A DNA stretch of 57,010 nucleotides from Bacteroidia bacterium (lineage in GTDB: Bacteria > Bacteroidota > Bacteroidia > UKL13-3): the NCBI GenBank assembly GCA_020049855.1, contig JAGVLJ010000050.1:1-57010 (forward strand), read 5' to 3'. Of this stretch, positions 6,588 through 43,637 are shown piece by piece (the stretch's first letter is position 1; the number at the start of each line of letters is the position of its first letter). The translations under genes were made by a program, and so were the position numbers. The notes beneath the pieces are model-generated. The model had not been told where the DNA came from and did no database searches. It worked only from the letters and a program-made list of their open reading frames with translations.

Positions 6588-6619
6588 ATGGAATTTGTAA
6601 CATTGAAATTCGGGTCTAG

Positions 6620-6734
6620 CATCCCCATACCCCCTTCACTTGTGCGCAAGCCCACGCTGCAAGGGGGATAAAACATCGGTAAAATTGTCCCCCTTGTGCG
6701 GCTGACCGCGGGAGAGCGAAGGGGGTAGGGGATG
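6620..6734. repeat. Imperfect palindromic intergenic repeat
   Basis: The left outer arm CATCCCCATACCCCCTT (6620-6636) pairs with AAGGGGGTAGGGGATG (6719-6734) with one bulged base. An inner G-rich block (6659-6669) pairs with a C-rich block (6687-6697). The right half shares a core (CTGACxGCGGGAGA..GAAGGGG) with 10718-10750 on the other side of the island. It looks like a REP/MITE-type element in the 361-bp gap 6576-6936; I see no gene in that gap. Confidence 0.55.
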
Positions 6735-6753
6735 TGCACTAACTTCAACGGAA

Positions 6754-6936: not shown

Positions 6937-7680
6937 ATGAATAAATTTATAGCATACTTTGATTTGCTTGGTTTTGAAGAATTTATTGCCAAAAATAGTA
7001 TTGATGATCAAAAAACGGCTCTTGGTGTTGTTTTTCATACCATTGAGTGCAGCCTATCGGGTGGCAAAGTTCTAAATACCGACATAGGTGTAGTAGCTGA
7101 CATATCCAATGCCCAAATTAATTGCCTTAACTTTTCGGACACTATCGTCTTTTGGACAAATGATGAGTCTACCTATTCATTAATCAATTTATTGAAAGTT
7201 GTTCACGACTTCAATTCAAAAATGATTCTTTATGTTTTTCCAATAAGAGGGGCGGTAACGTTTGGGGAAATATTTCATACGAATTATCGTGAAGCAAGTA
7301 ACCAGAATACACTTTACAATGTTAACTCTGTGTACGGCAAAGGAATCATTGAGGCATACAGAAAATCGGAAATGCAAAACTGGGCAGGTACTGTAATTGA
7401 CAATACAATTATTGAAGAGTTGAAACTAAGAAAAATTGAAGTTGACACATTTCTAAAGCCGTTTGCAAAAAAATACCAAGTACCATACAAAGATTTAAAT
7501 GTGCAAAAGTCTGACGAATACACCCTTTGCCCAGTAGAAGAAAAGATTGGCAACGAGTTTTTTAATAATTGTCAAAAATCAATTGAGCGAAATTTTTCTA
7601 ATTATAATAAAGATGTTTCACAGGCTTCTGTAAAAATAAAGTTAGCAACCACCATTAAGTTTCTTGAGAGTTTTAAATGA
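6937..7680 (+). CDS. Class III nucleotidyl-cyclase-like protein, unknown
   Basis: The soluble 247-residue protein has no signal peptide. Its pattern fits the class III adenylyl/guanylyl cyclase fold: AYFDLLGF at 6-13 (first metal-type Asp, D9), NFSDTIVFW at 65-73 (second Asp, D68), IRGAVTFGEIF at 103-113 (the RxGxxxG-like strand), and YGKGIIEAYRKSE at 133-145, matching the VNxAARLE helix, then a GTVID strand. Both catalytic-type aspartates are kept, so nucleotide or cyclic-nucleotide chemistry is plausible but unproven. It is the first gene of an AT-rich, four-gene co-directional island. Relation to Pycsar-type cyclases is speculative; no known effector partner matches exactly. Confidence 0.5.
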   Translation: MNKFIAYFDLLGFEEFIAKNSIDDQKTALGVVFHTIECSLSGGKVLNTDIGVVADISNAQINCLNFSDTIVFWTNDESTYSLINLLKVVHDFNSKMILYVFPIRGAVTFGEIFHTNYREASNQNTLYNVNSVYGKGIIEAYRKSEMQNWAGTVIDNTIIEELKLRKIEVDTFLKPFAKKYQVPYKDLNVQKSDEYTLCPVEEKIGNEFFNNCQKSIERNFSNYNKDVSQASVKIKLATTIKFLESFK

Positions 7681-7719
7681 AACAAATTGCACATTAAATA
7701 TTAATATAATCACTAGTTA

Positions 7720-8838
7720 ATGAGTAATAATTCTTTAATAAAATTTGGCTCTAATTCATTGGTCAGAGTAACGAATACAATACACGCTACAAACAAAATT
7801 ATTTACAACGGGATTGAACCGATCTTCAATGAAGCTTTTAGTTTATTAATTGGTAAAAACCCTAAAATATTTATTGAGAACTTTTGTTTTCTACTTGAAT
7901 ACGATGTAGATTATTTAAATAAAAAAGGATTTACATTCAAAGCAAACTCAAATGATGACTACGAAAAAGCTATTGAGCTATTTCAAAAAGTTATTGATAT
8001 AAAACCGAACTTTAAATATGCTCATAATTACTGTGGAGTTGCAAAATGTAAATTAGGAGATATAAAGGGTTCTATCGCTGATTACACTAACGCAATTGAA
8101 ATGGACATTAATTATGCAATAGCATATAATAATCGTGGAAATGCAAAGTTGCAAATTGAAGACTATAATGGAGCAATTGAAGATTTAACCAAAGCTATAG
8201 AAATAGAGCCAAACTATGCTAACGCGTATAGAAACCGCGGACATGCAAGGGTGAAAATTAAAGACTATAATCGGGCAATTGAAGATTACACCAAAGCTAT
8301 AGAAATAGAGCCGAATTATGGTAGCACATATGCATATCGTGGAAACACAAAGTTGCAAATTGAAGACTATAATGGAGCAATAGCGGATTTCACCAAAGTA
8401 ATTGAAATCAAGCCCAAATCAGAATTTGGATACTACTACCGTGGATATGTAAAATTGAAATTGGAAGACTATAATGGAGCTATTGAAGATTATACGAAGG
8501 CAATTGAAATAAATCAGAATTATGGTAGCGCATATGCAGATCGTGGAAACGCAAAGCTGCAAATTGAAGACTATGATGGTGCAATAGCAGATTTTACTAA
8601 AGTAATTGAAATCAAGCCCAAATCAGAATTTGGATACTACTACCGCGGATATGCAAAATTGAAATTTGAAGACTATAATGGGGCAATTGTTGATTATACG
8701 AAGGCAATTGAAATAAATCCGAATAAAGCTAGATACTACCAAAATCGAGGAATAGCTAAAAGTAAAAATGGCGATTTTAAAGGTGCAGAAATTGATAAAC
8801 TGAAATATAAAGATTTAATTTATATCAATGCAAACTGA
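7720..8838 (+). CDS. Tetratricopeptide-repeat protein of the island
   Basis: A 372-residue soluble protein. The first ~80 residues are a non-repetitive helical region; from about residue 85 onward there are roughly eight 34-residue TPRs of the form GNAKLQIEDYNGAIEDxTKAIEIxPNYxxAYxxR, ending near residue 360. TPR arrays bind protein or peptide partners. The last four repeats are a recent two-TPR duplication visible at DNA level. Its 3' end overlaps the next gene (PLD/J-domain) by 11 bp, so the two are probably translated together and may form a complex. No catalytic motif is seen. Confidence 0.85.
   Translation: MSNNSLIKFGSNSLVRVTNTIHATNKIIYNGIEPIFNEAFSLLIGKNPKIFIENFCFLLEYDVDYLNKKGFTFKANSNDDYEKAIELFQKVIDIKPNFKYAHNYCGVAKCKLGDIKGSIADYTNAIEMDINYAIAYNNRGNAKLQIEDYNGAIEDLTKAIEIEPNYANAYRNRGHARVKIKDYNRAIEDYTKAIEIEPNYGSTYAYRGNTKLQIEDYNGAIADFTKVIEIKPKSEFGYYYRGYVKLKLEDYNGAIEDYTKAIEINQNYGSAYADRGNAKLQIEDYDGAIADFTKVIEIKPKSEFGYYYRGYAKLKFEDYNGAIVDYTKAIEINPNKARYYQNRGIAKSKNGDFKGAEIDKLKYKDLIYINAN
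8341..8748 (+). repeat. Tandem 204-bp duplication (two TPRs) inside the TPR gene
   Basis: Units 8341-8544 and 8545-8748 are very similar in nucleotide sequence, including long identical runs such as the IEIKPKSEFGYYYRGY coding stretch. The unit equals 68 codons, i.e. two TPRs, so the frame is preserved. This indicates a recent in-frame expansion. Confidence 0.8.
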
Positions 8839-10180
8839 AGCAGTATTTGAAAATATAGCCGACAGAATTCAAACTGAAATTAGAAATGCTCAGAAATCCA
8901 TTTTCATTGCCGTTGCGTGGTTTACAAATAAGAACCTATTTAATGAGCTTGTTTTAAAAGCGAAAAGTGGTTGTCCAGTTTCACTAATTATTGCTGACGA
9001 CAAAATAAACTCAAACGCACAAATTCCTTTTAGTGAACTAGAAAAATACAATTCGAAATACTATAAAGTTGGAAACGGTGATACAGAATTAATGCATAAC
9101 AAATTTTGTGTTATTGATTTTAGCACAGTAATTACTGGTTCATATAATTGGAGTTATAAAGCCGAAATTAATTTTGAAAACGTAATTATCAATTATAATG
9201 ATACAGCTTTAGCAGAGCAATTCATTTCAGAGTTTGAGCAAATAAGAAAAAAGTTTTATCCTGATGAACAAAAAGAAGAAATCATCTTCCCAATAAATAA
9301 AATATTAATTCGTTTAGAAATTATTAAAAACTACATACTGCTTGAAGATATTGATGAATTGAATAAAGAAACACATAAATTAAATGAGTTCATTTTTAAT
9401 TCAGACATTGCTGAAATAATTAATCATATTCAAAATAACGAATATTCTTTTGCAGTCAATAAAATACAGAATTTTGCTTATCAAAATAATCAGATCTCAA
9501 TATGGAGTGACCCCGAAATTCCCGCACTGAAACTTGAAATTAAAAACTTAGAAAACCGAATCAATGCTTTCGATAACGAAAAAGTTGAACTCGAAAAAAT
9601 AATTTCAGATTTCCAATACAGACACACCATTGAATTAGGGAGCATCATTTTAGAGATTCTAAAACTTAGAAAACTTAAATTCAAAACCGACAAGAAAAAA
9701 TATGCTGAGGCTGAAAGTGATTATAAACAATTTAACAAACAGTTTGAAGAAGAAAAAAAGAAACAGCAATTTAAACTGACCGAAGAAGAGAAAATGGAAC
9801 TAAAAAAGAAATTTAGAAAAGCTACATTTCTCTGCCACCCAGACAAAGTAAATGACAAATTTAAGGAAGAGGCGCAAAAAATATTTATTGAATTAAAAGC
9901 CGCTTATGAAGCAAATGACCTAATGAAAGTATCGAAAATCCTTAACAACCTAGAAAAAAATAATTTCTTTAAGCCACAATCAGAAACTGTTTCCGAAAAA
10001 GATAAATTAAAAACAGCAATTGCTAAACTTCTTATTCAAATTAAAACTTTAGTAAATGAAATTGTATCTATTAAACAAAGCGAAACATTTAATACAATTG
10101 TTTCCATTACTGATTGGGACAATTACTTTAGAGTTACAAAAGAAAAATTGGAAAAGGAACTACAAGATTTACAAATTTGA
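8828..10180 (+). CDS. Phospholipase D-like protein with coiled coil and C-terminal J-domain
   Basis: The protein has 450 residues and no signal peptide. Residues 1-140 are a single PLD/nuclease domain with the HxKx4D motif HNKFCVID (H90, K92, D97) followed by ITGSYNWS, as in Nuc-type PLD nucleases that work as dimers. Residues about 150-320 are helical and partly coiled coil. Residues about 318-375 form a J-domain-like unit with the HPD motif (H337-P338-D339) in LCHPDKV, and a helical tail follows. Likely a nuclease or phosphodiesterase tethered to Hsp70 or to an assembly. It overlaps the TPR gene by 11 bp. The substrate is unknown; a toxic effector is an inference from context. Confidence 0.75.
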   Translation: MQTEAVFENIADRIQTEIRNAQKSIFIAVAWFTNKNLFNELVLKAKSGCPVSLIIADDKINSNAQIPFSELEKYNSKYYKVGNGDTELMHNKFCVIDFSTVITGSYNWSYKAEINFENVIINYNDTALAEQFISEFEQIRKKFYPDEQKEEIIFPINKILIRLEIIKNYILLEDIDELNKETHKLNEFIFNSDIAEIINHIQNNEYSFAVNKIQNFAYQNNQISIWSDPEIPALKLEIKNLENRINAFDNEKVELEKIISDFQYRHTIELGSIILEILKLRKLKFKTDKKKYAEAESDYKQFNKQFEEEKKKQQFKLTEEEKMELKKKFRKATFLCHPDKVNDKFKEEAQKIFIELKAAYEANDLMKVSKILNNLEKNNFFKPQSETVSEKDKLKTAIAKLLIQIKTLVNEIVSIKQSETFNTIVSITDWDNYFRVTKEKLEKELQDLQI

Positions 10181-10186
10181 AATACT

Positions 10187-10651
10187 ATGAGTAATATATT
10201 TAGCGAAATAGAGTATACAAATTCATACGATGGCATTTTTGGAAATGACCATGCATGCTTACACATAAATGACAATGTATTTAATGGTTACTTTGAAAAA
10301 TCCCCTATTGAAGAAAAACTAATCACAAGTTTCAATTACACCCCAATTGCAGACGGATTTCATAAACCATATAAGGCCAGCTGGATGGTTTATGAATCGA
10401 AATTATTACTTGGCTATGTTAATGGTTTAATTAATGGGCAACGATTATACACTACCGATATTATTCCTGAATTTCCGGATGACGAGATTTTATTTCTATA
10501 TCATTATTTTAGTGGGGTGCTAAAATTAACTATCCAACAGAAAGAAATTTTGCCAAATGCTAGCAACTTTATTAATCAGAACTGCAATAGTTTGCTGCTA
10601 ACATTTAAAAATGGTATTCTGTTGACAACAGAAGAAAATATTTCGGGATGA
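10187..10651 (+). CDS. Hypothetical protein of the island
   Basis: A 154-residue soluble protein of no family I recognise. It is acidic-to-neutral, rich in aromatic residues (NSYDGIFGNDHACLHIND near the N-terminus, KPYKASWMVYESKLLLGYVNG in the middle), with alternating patterns suggesting a beta-rich fold. There is no signal peptide or membrane segment. It starts 6 bp after the PLD/J-domain gene in the same orientation and has the same low-GC composition, so it probably belongs to the same operon. It could be an immunity, chaperone or accessory subunit; nothing in the sequence decides this. Confidence 0.6.
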   Translation: MSNIFSEIEYTNSYDGIFGNDHACLHINDNVFNGYFEKSPIEEKLITSFNYTPIADGFHKPYKASWMVYESKLLLGYVNGLINGQRLYTTDIIPEFPDDEILFLYHYFSGVLKLTIQQKEILPNASNFINQNCNSLLLTFKNGILLTTEENISG

Positions 10652-10689: not shown

Positions 10690-10853
10690 CAAGAAAATTG
10701 CTTCGTTCCTTCTAACTGACTGCGGGAGAATGAAGGGGACAGGAGTAAAGTCAGGCATTGCAAATCCAAAATAGAAAAGAATCCTATAGTTCCCTGTGAT
10801 CTGCAACGACAGAGACATTCCCAAAACTTTAAACTCCAAACCTTAAACTTTCA
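10690..10853. repeat. Intergenic remnants of dispersed repeats at the right edge of the island
   Basis: The segment includes CTGACTGCGGGAGAATGAAGG (about 10718-10740), similar to the right half of the 6620-6734 repeat, and an AAACTTTAAAC/CCTTAAACTTT stretch (10823-10853) whose complement resembles 50350-50388. No gene is visible in 10652-10860. The repeats may mark where the accessory block was inserted. Confidence 0.4.
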
Positions 10854-10860
10854 ACCCTCT

Positions 10861-11616
10861 TCACGCATACATCACCTGCTCCTCGCCCATTATTTTCTCT
10901 CCACGAAAACATAAGAGCAACTGAGCTACGGTTACCACATCTTTCTGGCAATAGGTTTTTATCCGTTCCAGATCTTTTTCCTTCCAATAAACTTCCCATA
11001 CCCGGCTGCCATCTATATCATCTTTTGGGGTGGGGATATTAAAACTGGCGGCCAGTAAATCGAGTGAGGTAAAACTTTTAAAGTCGCCAAACTTCCAAAG
11101 CTCCATGGTATCAAGCAAGGTTACTTCCCAAGGTTTTTTACCGGCATTATCCAGTATGCGTGGGATGGATACTCCGTTAATCAGGCAGCGCCTGCCTATA
11201 TACGGATAATCGAACTCTTTGCCGTTGTGGGCACAAAGCAGCTTATCGTTCTCCATGTTCCAGCGGTTAATCATTTGCCCAAATTCTTCGAGCACCAATT
11301 TTTCATTGTCCCCATAAAAAGATTTGAGTTTAAACTGCCACTCGTTGCCGTTGCGTAAAAAAACACCTACCGAAATACAGGCTATTTTTCCAAACTCGGC
11401 ATAAATGCCGGCACTGCTGTAAATATCCTGCGGTGTTTGGTCATCTTTTACCAGGTACTGGGCTTTCTTATTCCATAAGGCCTGCCAGCGGTCGTCAAGG
11501 CCCGTATAATCGGGATACTGGGGTACTGTTTCAATATCCAGACACAGTACTTTGGTTAAATCAAGGTTGTCGAGCATATGTTTACTTTCATCCAAATATC
11601 TGAAAAGTTTCGTCAT
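10861..11616 (-). CDS. Predicted PolB-like 3'-5' exonuclease
   Basis: This 251-residue RNase H-fold protein matches the DNA_pol_B_exo2 family. Exo I is LCLDIETVP (D27, E29), exo II is LCAHNGKEFDYPYIGRR near residues 127-143, and exo III is the YCQKDVVTV block near residues 221-229, together giving a DEDDy-type active site. It should degrade single strands or proofread DNA ends, but the physiological substrate in Bacteroidota is not established. It is a stand-alone gene between the island and the divergent SPFH operon. Confidence 0.9.
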   Translation of the reverse strand: MTKLFRYLDESKHMLDNLDLTKVLCLDIETVPQYPDYTGLDDRWQALWNKKAQYLVKDDQTPQDIYSSAGIYAEFGKIACISVGVFLRNGNEWQFKLKSFYGDNEKLVLEEFGQMINRWNMENDKLLCAHNGKEFDYPYIGRRCLINGVSIPRILDNAGKKPWEVTLLDTMELWKFGDFKSFTSLDLLAASFNIPTPKDDIDGSRVWEVYWKEKDLERIKTYCQKDVVTVAQLLLCFRGEKIMGEEQVMYA

Positions 11617-30051: not shown

Positions 30052-31407
30052 TTATTTTCTCCTCTTTTTCTGTGCCTTTTTAGTGGCTGCTTTTTTAACA
30101 ACTTTCTTTACAACTTTTTTCGCAACCTTTTTAGCTACTGTTTTTTTCTTAGCCGCTTTTTTAGGTGCAGCCTTTTTTATCACTTTCTTCACCGCTTTTT
30201 TAACGGCTACTTTCTTTTTTGCAACCGCTTTTTTAGCGGCCGGTTTTCTACCTGTTTTTTTAGCAACCTTTTTCACCGGACGTTTAGCTACGGCTTTTTT
30301 GATTACCTTTTTTACCGCTCGCTTAGGTACAACTTTTTTCACCGTCTTTTTGGTGGCCTTCTTTGGCAAAGCTTTTCTAATTGCCTTTTTTGCTACTTTT
30401 TTCACAGCGGTTTTCTTCACTACCTTTTTAGCAACCTTTTTAGGCAAAGCTTTTTTCGTAATCTTTTTAGTTACCTTTTTAGGAGCTGATTTTTGAACCA
30501 CTTTCTTCACCGCTTTTTTTGCAGTCACTTTTTTCACTGCTTTCTTTGGTGCGGATTTTTTAACCACTTTTTTAGCTGCTTTTTTAGGAGCCTGTTTCGC
30601 TGCTACTTTCTTTGTAGCAGGAGCAGCTTTTTTTGTGGCTGCTTTTTTCCTTGCAGGTGCCGCTTTTTTAACAGCAGTTTTTGCCGGAGTAACTTTTTTA
30701 GCCGCAACTTTTGCTTTTGTTACTGCTGCTTTTTTCGCAATGGTTTTAGACGGTGACGGAGCAGGCTCGGATTTAGGAGCAGCTTTTTCTTCTTCCCTGG
30801 CCGGAGGCATGGTAACAACTACCGGAGCAGGTGCTGCAAACGCATCTATGATGTGACACAGTGAAGAAAAAATACCGTCAATACTGCCCACGCCATTTAC
30901 ACCTTTATATTTTCCCTGTGCAGCATAAAATTCTTTTACCAGTGCTGTTTCGTTATTGTACACGTTAATTCTGTTTTGAATGACAGCCGGGTCGGCATCA
31001 TCGGGGCGACCTGACATTTCGCCTCTGCCGGTTAATCGTTTTTTAAGTTCTTCCTCGTCCACTTCAAGTGCAATCATGGCCGTGATATTGTTGTTTTGAG
31101 AAGAGAGCATCGAATCAAGGGCATTAGCCTGGGCCACGGTGCGTGGAAACCCGTCAAAAATAAATCCTGTAGCATGGGGATTTTTGGCCACCTCGGCCTC
31201 AATCATACCAATGGTAACTGAATCGGGAACCAACATTCCCTTTTCAATAAAACTTTTAGCTAATTGGCCTAATTCGGTTTCGCCTTTCATATTGGCGCGA
31301 AAGATATCACCTGTAGAGAGGTGAGTAAGTCCATACTTTTCAATCAGCTTGGCCGATTGAGTTCCTTTGCCGGCTCCCGGAGGGCCGAAGAGTACGATGT
31401 TAAGCAT
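30052..31407 (-). CDS. adk: Adenylate kinase with long histone H1-like C-terminal tail
   Basis: From ATG 31407 the protein has 451 residues. Residues 1 to ~190 are a complete short-type adenylate kinase: P-loop FGPPGAGKGT, STGDIFRA, FDGFPRT, and GRGEMSGRPDD in the small lid; it interconverts ATP, AMP and ADP. After a Pro/Glu linker (about 190-225), the remaining ~225 residues are almost only Lys, Ala, Val, Thr, Pro and Arg in KKA/KKV repeats, like bacterial histone H1-like tails. Normal Adk ends near 190. The start overlaps hpt by 8 bp, so they are probably coupled. The tail may bind nucleic acids or may be internally initiated; neither is shown. Confidence 0.92.
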   Translation of the reverse strand: MLNIVLFGPPGAGKGTQSAKLIEKYGLTHLSTGDIFRANMKGETELGQLAKSFIEKGMLVPDSVTIGMIEAEVAKNPHATGFIFDGFPRTVAQANALDSMLSSQNNNITAMIALEVDEEELKKRLTGRGEMSGRPDDADPAVIQNRINVYNNETALVKEFYAAQGKYKGVNGVGSIDGIFSSLCHIIDAFAAPAPVVVTMPPAREEEKAAPKSEPAPSPSKTIAKKAAVTKAKVAAKKVTPAKTAVKKAAPARKKAATKKAAPATKKVAAKQAPKKAAKKVVKKSAPKKAVKKVTAKKAVKKVVQKSAPKKVTKKITKKALPKKVAKKVVKKTAVKKVAKKAIRKALPKKATKKTVKKVVPKRAVKKVIKKAVAKRPVKKVAKKTGRKPAAKKAVAKKKVAVKKAVKKVIKKAAPKKAAKKKTVAKKVAKKVVKKVVKKAATKKAQKKRRK

Positions 31408-31951
31408 ATACATTCTTAGTTTTAAGTTTATAAATATGTTTCAGATTTCGTCCGTATCCATTGTAATCGAGCCCAAAGCCCAATAAAAAATCATTTTCAA
31501 CTTCAAACCCACAATAATCAACCGATACCGCCATTTTCAATGCCTTTGGTTTAAGTAACAACGAAGCCACTTGAACCGAAGACGGCTGATAACTTTGCAA
31601 AGTAAGTAACAATTGATGAAGAGTAAGCCCTGAATCAACAATATCTTCTAAAATAATAATATGTTGTCCTTTGAGGTCTTCGTTTAAACCCAACAGCGTA
31701 TTTACCTGTCCGCTGCTTTGTGTGCCATGATAAGAGGTGAATTTAACAAAACTGATGCGGCATGTACCCTGATAGTTTTTGAGTAAATCGGCTGCAAAAA
31801 GAAACGACCCGTTCAGTACTCCCAAAAACAAAGGTTCGCGTGTGGCATAATCCTTCTGCATCTGTACGGCTATTTCCTCAATTCGTTGCTGAATGAGGGA
31901 GTGCTCTAAAAAGGGTACAAAAGTTTTATTGAGTATTATAATTTCCTGCAT
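31400..31951 (-). CDS. hpt: Hypoxanthine phosphoribosyltransferase
   Basis: This 183-residue purine salvage enzyme makes IMP or GMP from hypoxanthine or guanine and PRPP. It has the PRPP loop IIILEDIVDSGLT, a SFVKFTSYHG flexible-loop region, and YCGFEVENDFLLGFGLDYNGYGRNL near the end. The chosen ATG (31951) gives a leader of 7 nt after a TACCTTTG box; upstream TTG starts are unlikely because they would overlap the promoter. First of hpt-adk-obgE. Confidence 0.94.
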   Translation of the reverse strand: MQEIIILNKTFVPFLEHSLIQQRIEEIAVQMQKDYATREPLFLGVLNGSFLFAADLLKNYQGTCRISFVKFTSYHGTQSSGQVNTLLGLNEDLKGQHIIILEDIVDSGLTLHQLLLTLQSYQPSSVQVASLLLKPKALKMAVSVDYCGFEVENDFLLGFGLDYNGYGRNLKHIYKLKTKNVYA

Positions 31952-41099: not shown

Positions 41100-43637
41100 T
41101 TATCGCTTGCTTTTAACCTTCTTTTTGGCAACTTTTTTTACAGAAGCTTTTTTTGGAACGGGTCTTTTAGCTACTGCTTTCTTGGAAGAAGCTTTCTTGG
41201 AAGAAGTCTTTTTTGCCACCACCTTTGTAGCCGTTGCTTTTTTTACCGGAGTTTTTTTACCCGCAAAAGATTTTGCGGGAGTACCTTTAGGTGCTGCTTT
41301 CTTAGCTGTTTTCTTTGCGCCTTTAACAGGAGTTTCTTTAATCCCACCCTGCTTCGCTATAATTTCCATTACCTCTTTATAAGAGAGTTTCTCGGGTGCA
41401 GGAGAACCTTTTGGTATTTTAAAATTTTGTTTGCCGATAGCAATATATGGCCCCCATCTACCTTTGAGAACCTGAAGCCCTTCATGCTCTTTATATATTT
41501 TCATTACCCGCTCGGCATCCGATTTACGTTTGGCTTCAATAAGTTCAATAGCGCGATTTTCTTCTACGGTATAAGGGTCATCTGTTTTAGGCAACGAAAC
41601 AAATTTATTATCGTGCAACAGGTATGGGCCAAATTTACCAATAGAAACTTTAATTTCTTTTCCTTCAAATTTACCGGCCACCCGTGGAAGTTTAAACAAG
41701 CTGAGTGCTTCTTCCAAGGTAATTCGCTCAATGGTTTGATTTCCCCTCACCGATGCATATGTAGGTTTTTCCTCATCGGTATTCTCGCCTATTTGTGCCA
41801 GAGGGCCGTAACGGCCAATTTTAACATACACATTTTTCCCGCTTACCGGATCTGTGCCAAGCAACCGTTCACCGGTTTGTTTCTCGGCAGTTTCAATGGT
41901 ACGCTCCACTGTTTTATGAAAAGGCCCGTAAAACGATTCGAGCATTTTATTCCACTTCAACTGGCCCTGAGCAATCTCGTCAAACTCCTTTTCTACCATA
42001 GCGGTAAATCCAAAATCGAGGATCTCCCCAAAATTTTTCACGAGAAAATCGTTTACTACCGAGCCAATATCGCTGGGAAATAATTTTGATTTTTCGGAAC
42101 CAAAATTTTCCGTTTTTGTTTCTTCTTTTAGCTTGTCTGAAGCACTTAAGGTAAGCACTTCAAAGGTGCGCTCTTTCCCATCTCGGTCTTCTTTTACCAC
42201 ATACCCTCGTTTTTGAATAGTAGAAATAGTGGGTGCATAAGTAGAAGGACGACCAATCCCAAGTTCTTCCAGTTTTTTCACCAAACTTGCTTCGGTATAG
42301 CGCGGGGCAGGACGCGAGTATTTTTGCACGGCAGTCATCTCGTGCAATTTCAGTTTGTCACCTACCTTTAACGGGGGCAACATTCCGGCATTTTCTTCAT
42401 CGGCATTATCATCATCTTTCGATTCGAGGTACACTTTCAGAAATCCGTCAAATTTCATTACTTCTCCGGTAGCAATAAATTCTTCTACAGCCGAAGACAC
42501 ACTTATGGTGGCTGTTGTTTTTTCCAATTGTGCATCGGCCATTTGCGAAGCGATGGAACGTTTCCATATCAAATCATATAACCGTTTTGCTCCATTATCT
42601 CCATCAATTACTTGATTTTCGAAATAAGTTGGCCGAATGGCTTCGTGCGCTTCCTGCGCTCCGCTACTCTTGGTAGTGTACCTGCGGGTAAATACATATT
42701 CACGTCCGTAACTCGATTTGATTTCTTTTTGGGCAGCATCTAATGCAAATTCCGAAAGGTTTACAGAATCGGTACGCATATAAGTGATATGACCCGACTC
42801 ATATAATTTTTGCGCGATGGTCATGGTTTGTGAAACAGAAAATCCCAATTTACGACTGGCTTCCTGTTGCAGAGTAGAAGTAGTAAATGGGGCAGCCGGA
42901 GATTTTTTTGCCGGTTTTGTTTCGAGATTTTTAATTTTATAAGTAGCTCCTTTACATTTTTCCAAAAAGGCTCTTGCCTCTTTGTACGTGCTGAAACGTT
43001 TTGGTAATTCAGCCTGCATTTTCTTTCCAGAGCCATCAGTAAGCACAAACTCGGCACTTACTTTATAATTGAACGTTGTTTTAAAATTTAAAATTTCGCG
43101 CTCCCGCTCCACAATTACTCGTACCGCTACCGATTGTACCCTTCCGGCCGATAGACTCGGCTTCACTTTTTTCCAGAGAATGGGCGAAAGTTCAAAACCT
43201 ACCAGTCTGTCTAAAATTCTGCGTGCCTGCTGCGCATCTACCAGATTCATATCAATAGAACGTGGTTTGTCAATAGCTCTAAGAATGGCAGGTTTGGTAA
43301 TTTCATGAAAAACTATTCTGCGTGTTTTACTTTTTTCAAGCTCAAGCACCTGCGATAAATGCCAGGAAATGGCTTCTCCCTCACGATCCTCATCGGATGC
43401 GAGCCAAATGATATCACTTTTATCTGCCAGCCCTTTTAGTTCTTTTACCAACTGCTTTTTGTCGGGGTCTATTTCATAAACCGGCTTAAATTTATTTTTG
43501 ATATCAATGGCATTATCTCCTTTCACAAGGTCGCGGATATGGCCATAACATGACTTAACCACGAAATCTTTTCCAAGAAATTTCTCTATGGTTTTAGCCT
43601 TTGCAGGCGACTCAACAATGACGAGATTTTTAGGCAT
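41100..43637 (-). CDS. topA: DNA topoisomerase I with Lys/Ala-rich tail
   Basis: The 845-residue type IA topoisomerase relaxes negatively supercoiled DNA. The toprim domain starts LVIVESPAKAKTIEKFLG (residues 5-22) with the acidic DEDREGEAI near residue 82. The catalytic Tyr is Y286 in GHITYMRTDS. Three zinc-ribbon-like repeat blocks appear around residues 590-760 in a cysteine-poor form (GPYLLHDNK, WGPYIAIGKQNFKIPKG). The last ~80 residues are Lys/Ala/Pro-rich (KKAAPKGTPAKS, VKKATATKVVAKK), a common extra DNA-binding tail in this phylum. It is followed by a SirB1-like gene in the same direction. Confidence 0.95.
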   Translation of the reverse strand: MPKNLVIVESPAKAKTIEKFLGKDFVVKSCYGHIRDLVKGDNAIDIKNKFKPVYEIDPDKKQLVKELKGLADKSDIIWLASDEDREGEAISWHLSQVLELEKSKTRRIVFHEITKPAILRAIDKPRSIDMNLVDAQQARRILDRLVGFELSPILWKKVKPSLSAGRVQSVAVRVIVEREREILNFKTTFNYKVSAEFVLTDGSGKKMQAELPKRFSTYKEARAFLEKCKGATYKIKNLETKPAKKSPAAPFTTSTLQQEASRKLGFSVSQTMTIAQKLYESGHITYMRTDSVNLSEFALDAAQKEIKSSYGREYVFTRRYTTKSSGAQEAHEAIRPTYFENQVIDGDNGAKRLYDLIWKRSIASQMADAQLEKTTATISVSSAVEEFIATGEVMKFDGFLKVYLESKDDDNADEENAGMLPPLKVGDKLKLHEMTAVQKYSRPAPRYTEASLVKKLEELGIGRPSTYAPTISTIQKRGYVVKEDRDGKERTFEVLTLSASDKLKEETKTENFGSEKSKLFPSDIGSVVNDFLVKNFGEILDFGFTAMVEKEFDEIAQGQLKWNKMLESFYGPFHKTVERTIETAEKQTGERLLGTDPVSGKNVYVKIGRYGPLAQIGENTDEEKPTYASVRGNQTIERITLEEALSLFKLPRVAGKFEGKEIKVSIGKFGPYLLHDNKFVSLPKTDDPYTVEENRAIELIEAKRKSDAERVMKIYKEHEGLQVLKGRWGPYIAIGKQNFKIPKGSPAPEKLSYKEVMEIIAKQGGIKETPVKGAKKTAKKAAPKGTPAKSFAGKKTPVKKATATKVVAKKTSSKKASSKKAVAKRPVPKKASVKKVAKKKVKSKR

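Follow-up and report, generated by a model that had tools for sequence, protein, structure and literature searches.

What holds together the four genes of a conspicuously AT-rich block in the genome of a Bacteroidia bacterium (GTDB lineage UKL13-3), and what might they do? The block occupies positions 6937-10651 of contig JAGVLJ010000050.1 (assembly GCA_020049855.1), of which positions 1 to 57,010 were analyzed, a stretch of 57,010 nucleotides referred to in the following as the window. An initial annotation made from the DNA alone had described genes for a cyclase-like protein, a TPR protein, a protein with PLD and J domains (PLD/J) and an orphan, and had considered the four as a possible defence layout. 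Its gene calls hold: the four open reading frames (ORFs) lie on the plus strand at the coordinates given below, and the second and third overlap by 11 bp (8828-8838). The block also has the low GC content claimed for it, 0.304 as compared to 0.412 in the rest of the window, where the lowest non-overlapping stretch of equal length reaches 0.366 (z of about -5.2 for the block). The four-gene unit has to be abandoned, as only genes 2 and 3 were found to be conserved together when the same gene order was sought in other genomes, and neither gene 1 nor gene 4 travels with this pair. Judged by gene order, genes 2 and 3 are the conserved unit of the block. We put forward that they may constitute a two-gene receptor-effector system, in which a tag on the receptor docks on the J-domain part of the effector, a further receptor module senses an invader, the PLD/J protein degrades nucleic acid and Hsp70 exerts control, a proposal that in our estimate is evenly poised between right and wrong.

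The putative effector is the product of gene 3 (8828-10180, plus strand, 450 amino acids). Its designation as a PLD plus J-domain protein is borne out by Pfam, the predicted model and structural matches. Residues 1-147 (8828-9268, plus strand) form a PLD domain of the Nuc/NucT/Zucchini type with a single HKD motif (H90, K92, D97) per chain (Pfam PLDc_2, E 2.1e-22). According to alignments and the model, residues 150-450 (9275-10177, plus strand) comprise a helical region, a long coiled coil and the J domain; this J-domain/coiled-coil module following the PLD domain is termed J-CC. Both motifs picked out earlier by eye are present, and H90/K92/D97, the HPD of the J domain (H337/P338/D339, codons at 9836-9844, plus strand) and the GSxN residues of the PLD domain are identical in all 23 aligned proteins, the window copy included. 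With HxKxxxxD, GSxN and a Nuc-like fold, the protein belongs to the PLD (HKD) superfamily. The closest solved structures to residues 1-147 are Nuc, NucT and Zucchini, and alignment of the gene 3 model with Nuc (1byr) by VIA-align gave a Z score of 19.5 and a root-mean-square deviation (rmsd) of 2.1 over 141 residues; the structural matches cover residues 1-147 only, with J-CC lying outside. The Pfam DnaJ match is weak (25.9 bits against a curated cut-off of 27.8), a relative in L080 scores 29.1 (L and G numbers are our handles for loci and genomes), and in the predicted model the HPD sits between two helices (319-336 and 343-361), as expected of a J-domain protein. The model has a mean predicted local distance difference test value (pLDDT) of 80 and a predicted template modelling score (pTM) of 0.38, and because of the latter the arrangement of the domains in it is unreliable.

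Gene 2 (7720-8838, plus strand, 372 amino acids) encodes the putative receptor. That it is a TPR protein is confirmed by Pfam (TPR_1, 188.7 bits); its TPR-coding tandem repeat, the variable module, extends from 8030 to 8743 (plus strand) with a spacing of 102 nt and double units of 204 nt that are 65-86% alike to the reference. In front of the repeats, residues 4-32 (7729-7815, plus strand) form a tag of about 29 amino acids with a consensus of about NSLIPIxxxxLxRVxNSIxITNKxL, which is common to otherwise unrelated proteins encoded beside other PLD/J genes and which matches the tag profile with an E value of 1.2e-12 in the window copy.

The link between tag and J-CC was approached from both sides. 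Scanning genomes with the PLD/J alignment led to 36 loci, 27 of which (L021-L045, L047 and L049, all from Bacteroidota, the window copy not counted) contain a PLD/J gene with complete J-CC; in L040 the 5' end of this gene is lost at a contig edge, L037 ends at a contig edge and no tagged gene was counted there, and L023, L024 and L025 are near-copies of one unit. A tagged gene adjoins PLD/J in 22 of the 27 loci (E 1.3e-11 or better), a count that is partly in-sample as most of these genes had gone into the tag profile. The two genes are adjacent or overlapping, with a gap of at most 3 nt in 12 of the 18 cases in which the tagged gene lies upstream. The reverse search, in which the tag profile was run over 395 genomes of the class from a start independent of PLD/J, yielded 22 matches in 17 genomes. 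A J-CC gene lies directly beside 17 of them, spread over 12 genomes, and the remaining five rank last (E 0.004-0.009). Eleven of these 17, from seven genomes, lie outside the rows of the tag model, although one of the seven (G071) had come up before. Shorter J-CC frames stand beside tagged genes in G366 and G071. As tagged genes occur next to J-CC genes lacking PLD in four genomes (G062, G321, G154 and G252), the comparison points to J-CC rather than PLD as the partner of the tag. Furthermore, in 322 pairs from 26 tagged genes, the identity of the tags rises with that of the J-CC parts (r 0.39, a value reached by 9 of 5000 permutations) but shows no such relation to module class (r -0.10, 4505 of 5000 permutations); the module labels of L004, L030b, L036, L038, L039b, L044b, L049, L080a and L083a were assigned by reading and not by Pfam. 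Where a locus contains tagged paralogues, the tags resemble each other more closely than do the remaining parts of the proteins in 8 of 8 pairs (six loci, one giving three pairs).

What follows the tag is exchanged from locus to locus. Pfam recognizes TPR in the window and in L027, L029, L031, L032, L033, L035 and L039, WD40 in L021 and L025, LRR in L028, L044 and both genes of L040 (in L047 only below the cut-off), Fib_succ_major in L026 (= L002), L030 and L045 and a PQQ propeller in L034 (= L003), while a Pfam match after the tag was not obtained for L036 and L049; WG repeats are present on the viral contig L098. The exchange is sharply delimited in L026 and L025. Both share 96.7% DNA identity over 1557 nt from the kinase gene to the tag's last residues, no similarity could be detected across the module (Fib_succ_major versus WD40), and the match resumes at base 1 of PLD/J (90.6%); for L026 and L023 the corresponding values are 97.2% (kinase gene plus tag) and 94.8% (PLD/J). 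A weakly tagged protein beside PLD/J in L041 (9374-10792) matches Prim-Pol and RNase_T, which suggests that an enzyme may likewise fill the exchangeable place.

Such units have spread horizontally. A 3.87-kb unit of kinase, WD40 receptor and PLD/J recurs with 97-98% identity in L023, L024 and L025 from three genomes, two of which are metagenome-assembled genomes and one of which belongs to an isolate, Lunatimonas salinarum; megablast found no match among these loci outside the unit, with only about 300 nt (L023) and about 130 nt (L025) compared on the downstream side. Among 33 loci scanned, the ends GTTATAAGCC and GGCTTATAAC frame the unit in L021, L023, L024, L026 and L047, and in L025 with one 3' mismatch. 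An imperfect palindrome of about 120 nt, resembling the attC sites of integrons, follows the unit in L021, L023 and L024 (detected by script) and in L047 (by eye); a crude scan returned 17 attC-like sites versus three in one set of block shuffles, none was found in the window, and the integron integrase IntI exceeded the cut-off in none of nine records. The palindromes of L023, L024 and L025 are unrelated to each other though the units are 97-98% identical, and all begin at GGCTTATAA. Rfam gave no match at gathering scores for six loci. The viral contig L098 carries PLD/J and the tagged WG gene near an integrase, two phage records and 20 plasmid records match PLD/J, and none of the plasmid matches exceeds 80% of the query. 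Upstream of the tagged gene, L023-L026 carry a Ser/Thr kinase gene. In L021, L027 and L047 its place is taken by a conserved gene (243-265 amino acids, beginning MTDWTAAYRR) that lacks a Pfam match in the L021 copy.

At the level of sequence, the pairing, the constancy of the tag, the exchange of modules, the conservation of catalytic and HPD residues and the horizontal spread are established; the mechanism proposed on this basis would run as follows. The effector is most likely a nuclease of the PLD family fused to J-CC, on which the constant N-terminal tag of the receptor would dock. The exchangeable recognition module, TPR in the present case, may sense a molecule of the invader and thereby bring PLD/J chains together; with a single HKD per chain, as judged from sequence, a dimer would be needed for one active site, as in Nuc. 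The assembled PLD/J protein could then degrade nucleic acid of phage or host. Its HPD may recruit Hsp70 (DnaK), which would either hold the effector silent or drive its switch. From the defence layout originally suggested, consisting of a signal synthase, a scaffold and a PLD effector, the receptor or scaffold beside the PLD effector is thus retained as a conserved arrangement and the synthase is lost. A defence role, which we still infer, is better grounded than before because of the swappable recognition modules, the mobility and the prophage cargo. The neighbourhoods are also counted toward it: 343 PADLOC models were matched in PLD/J locus flanks versus 74 in control regions (130 proteins each), a figure inflated by one kinase gene in three near-identical loci. 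The flank proteins represent 130 of 176 ORFs within 3.5 kb and include the tag-like genes of L041, L042, L043 and L030; the controls represent 130 of 153 ORFs and contain more residues (46,129 versus 38,018).

Several observations weigh against this receptor-effector reading. Tags are weak in L043 (E 0.0011) and L041 (E 0.014), the upstream TPR protein of L042 is tag-like at its start by eye only, and in L022, where PLD/J is full-length, the profile found no tagged gene; most of the loci labelled by this profile had also served to train it. Among the 60 pairs with a J-CC identity above 70%, tags with the same module are more alike (0.58, 8 pairs) than those with different modules (0.47, 52 pairs). 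Housekeeping genes, enolase and citrate synthase among them, also occur in the flanks, and one J-CC relative adjoins genes of the type VI secretion system (T6SS) type. Finally, a J-CC profile run over 395 genomes of the phylum found 20 genes. Next to these, the window copy aside, a tag-like gene turned up in just two genomes, G554 (E 0.0068) and, judged by eye, G591. Most of the remoter J-CC genes are without a tag within the approximately 1.5 kb examined, which makes J-CC broader than the system of PLD/J and tagged receptors. Distant J-CC proteins are even encoded in enterobacteria (L101, 5233-6402; L099, 502-1677). One of them is annotated as 'molecular chaperone DnaJ' and adjoins an Hcp gene on a plasmid, the other lies on a contig with genes reading like ykgB, rclA and rclR; a search of E. 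coli with the J-CC region of L099 gave no match.

Among the alternatives, a chaperone adaptor without any role in defence survives best. Tagged proteins would select clients for J-CC and DnaK, and PLD would act on cellular nucleic acid or lipid under stress. The invariant HPD, the PLD-free J-CC genes with tagged neighbours in the four genomes named above and the nature of TPR and WD40 as general interaction modules all fit this explanation, which we nevertheless consider unlikely, given the patchy presence, the recent horizontal copies, the exchange of unrelated module folds and the carriage by prophage. It is quite improbable, on the other hand, that the pair is a kinase-linked regulatory or signalling scaffold without killing function. 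The kinase upstream in L023-L026 would agree with such a scaffold, and so would L129 (1-3690, G337), where by eye a distant J-CC gene has a gene of protein kinase type on one side and vWA-like and PP2C-like genes on the other, a set reminiscent of TerY-type triads; most of the other loci read lack the kinase, however, and the catalytic PLD residues are strictly kept. Interbacterial antagonism, with PLD/J as a secreted toxin or its adaptor and the tagged proteins as adhesins or cargo, is in our view very improbable. It could appeal to a distant J-CC protein on an Enterobacter plasmid, whose gene is flanked by Hcp-type and other genes and has one for a polymorphic toxin domain protein in its vicinity, but the loci read show no immunity gene pattern and VipB was found in none of 13 carrier genomes by a search that was not exhaustive, in which the control was positive in one of 14 named genomes and which divergent sheaths could escape; the reading as a T6SS effector was rejected on this count.

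Gene 1 (6937-7680, plus strand, 247 amino acids) is a neighbour outside the conserved unit. The class III cyclase fold foreseen for its product was corroborated by the predicted model (mean pLDDT 82, pTM 0.82), for which all 50 structural matches shown are cyclases (best match Z 14.0, rmsd 3.7 over 172 residues), and both metal Asp, D9 and D68, are indeed identical in all eight rows of alignment A4. Position 138, which we take to be the site of the usual transition-state Asn, is never Asn in these eight rows or in the six rows of alignment A7, and Arg at 142 is confined to the window copy. Relatives of gene 1 occur in seven of 198 genomes of the class, its own included. In the stretches examined around the other relatives there is no J-CC gene (the PLD/J profile gave one chance-level match of 12 bits in L091), and the PLD/J loci examined contain, the window copy apart, no gene 1-like gene (two matches, E 0.21 and 0.89). 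As the two are not found together elsewhere, a nucleotide signal from gene 1 to PLD, as initially suggested, is not supported. A cyclic nucleotide from gene 1 that activates PLD through the TPR protein is accordingly the least probable of the explanations considered, even though the cyclase fold, the common direction of the genes and their shared low GC content would suit it, since linkage to PLD/J is missing in other loci and Asn, by our own motif reading of position 138, is missing too. Relatives of gene 1 are also present in the viral contigs L104, L105, L107 and L108, where some adjacent genes look like those of repressors or lysis regions.

Gene 4 (10187-10651, plus strand, 154 amino acids), the other neighbour of the pair, has no match in Pfam, PADLOC or NCBIfam. 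It was found in one of 198 genomes of the class, its own, and is nearly unique by this comparison; a weak relative (E 7e-4) lies downstream of PLD/J in L042. Of the related repeats that had been thought to border the block, the copy at 6618-6736 (no strand assigned) is a real, palindromic intergenic repeat. It has eight matches in its own genome, seven of them elsewhere on five other contigs, and because of this dispersal it is no peculiar border of the block; an island framed by its own repeats was ruled out on the same grounds. Its relationship to the sequence at 10690-10760 is partial and consists of a single 21-nt match with two mismatches to a degenerate pattern, which has eight matches in the window, a number reached in 4 of 100 shuffles. 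There is no tRNA insertion site in the window. When empty sites were looked up, the genes flanking the block were on different contigs in G001, and in G002 only one of them was found.

Two further observations concern other genes. Elsewhere in the window, by eye, an adenylate kinase-like ORF (30052-31413, minus strand) has a very long tail rich in Lys, Ala and Pro and a topoisomerase I-like ORF (41100-43637, minus strand) a similar shorter one, so that two enzymes bear histone H1-like tails. In the same-genus genome G001, genes that by eye resemble those for multi-ubiquitin, E2-like and E1/ThiF-like proteins (L164, 15951-17600) are separated by about 14 kb from the homologue of the window gene at 10861-11616.

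Returning to the receptor-effector reading of genes 2 and 3, we tentatively extend it, with somewhat less than even confidence, to an undescribed immune platform, where interchangeable tagged receptors (LRR, WD40, TPR, propeller, WG, lectin-like), plugged in by recombination, would share a single PLD nuclease coupled to Hsp70. This would be an NTPase-free prokaryotic counterpart of the LRR/WD receptors of plants and animals, with a chaperone switch replacing the STAND switch. If true, it would represent natural receptor swapping, the same tag and effector being combined with unrelated recognition folds and spread as short mobile units. Two-gene constructs would then allow one to test how an NTPase-free receptor sets off its effector and whether bacterial immunity is governed by a J domain and Hsp70, and the tag would provide a search key for receptor repertoires in Bacteroidota.

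A description of a system of PLD/J and tagged receptors was not found in the open-access literature, subscription papers being mostly outside the search, and PADLOC, NCBIfam and DISARM models gave no strong match for the four block proteins. Pycsar shares the cyclase fold with gene 1 (cytidylate cyclase 8jsf ranks 49th among the structural matches), which differs in the lack of the usual transition-state Asn and of PLD linkage in other loci. DrmC of DISARM is a PLD-like protein in defence with weak profile similarity to gene 3, whose identity with DrmC was dismissed at 13.6 bits against a cut-off of 133. Nuc, NucT, Zucchini and the restriction enzyme BfiI have the PLD fold and the HKD motif in common with gene 3, in which, by contrast, the PLD domain is joined to J-CC and has exchangeable tagged receptors as partners. 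The closest parallels lie in modular conflict systems. BASS, the bacterial amyloid signalling motifs, combine a short N-terminal motif on the receptor with an effector in the next gene and have motifs on both partners (PMC8086366); the first two features are shared by the gene 2/3 pair, but a tag is not detectable on PLD/J (best score 7 bits in 23 proteins), and a homotypic motif of the BASS kind was therefore discarded. In the conflict systems built on EADs and Death-like domains, sensors of different kinds (TPR, WD, lectin-like FGS) are connected through a common adaptor with effectors encoded by neighbouring genes (Kaur et al., 2020; Kaur et al., 2021; PMC7159879, PMC8195603), and a term search of these two texts returned no PLD. 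The adaptor principle, with varied sensors and a neighbouring effector, is the same as that proposed here, where only the receptor bears the tag and its partner is the PLD/J protein. EAD/STAND systems have an NTPase in their core, whereas none of the four block proteins matches an NTPase, STAND and MoxR types included (Pfam, E up to 1). The modular receptor-effector principle as such has precedent; the pair of PLD/J and tagged receptor itself looks undescribed.

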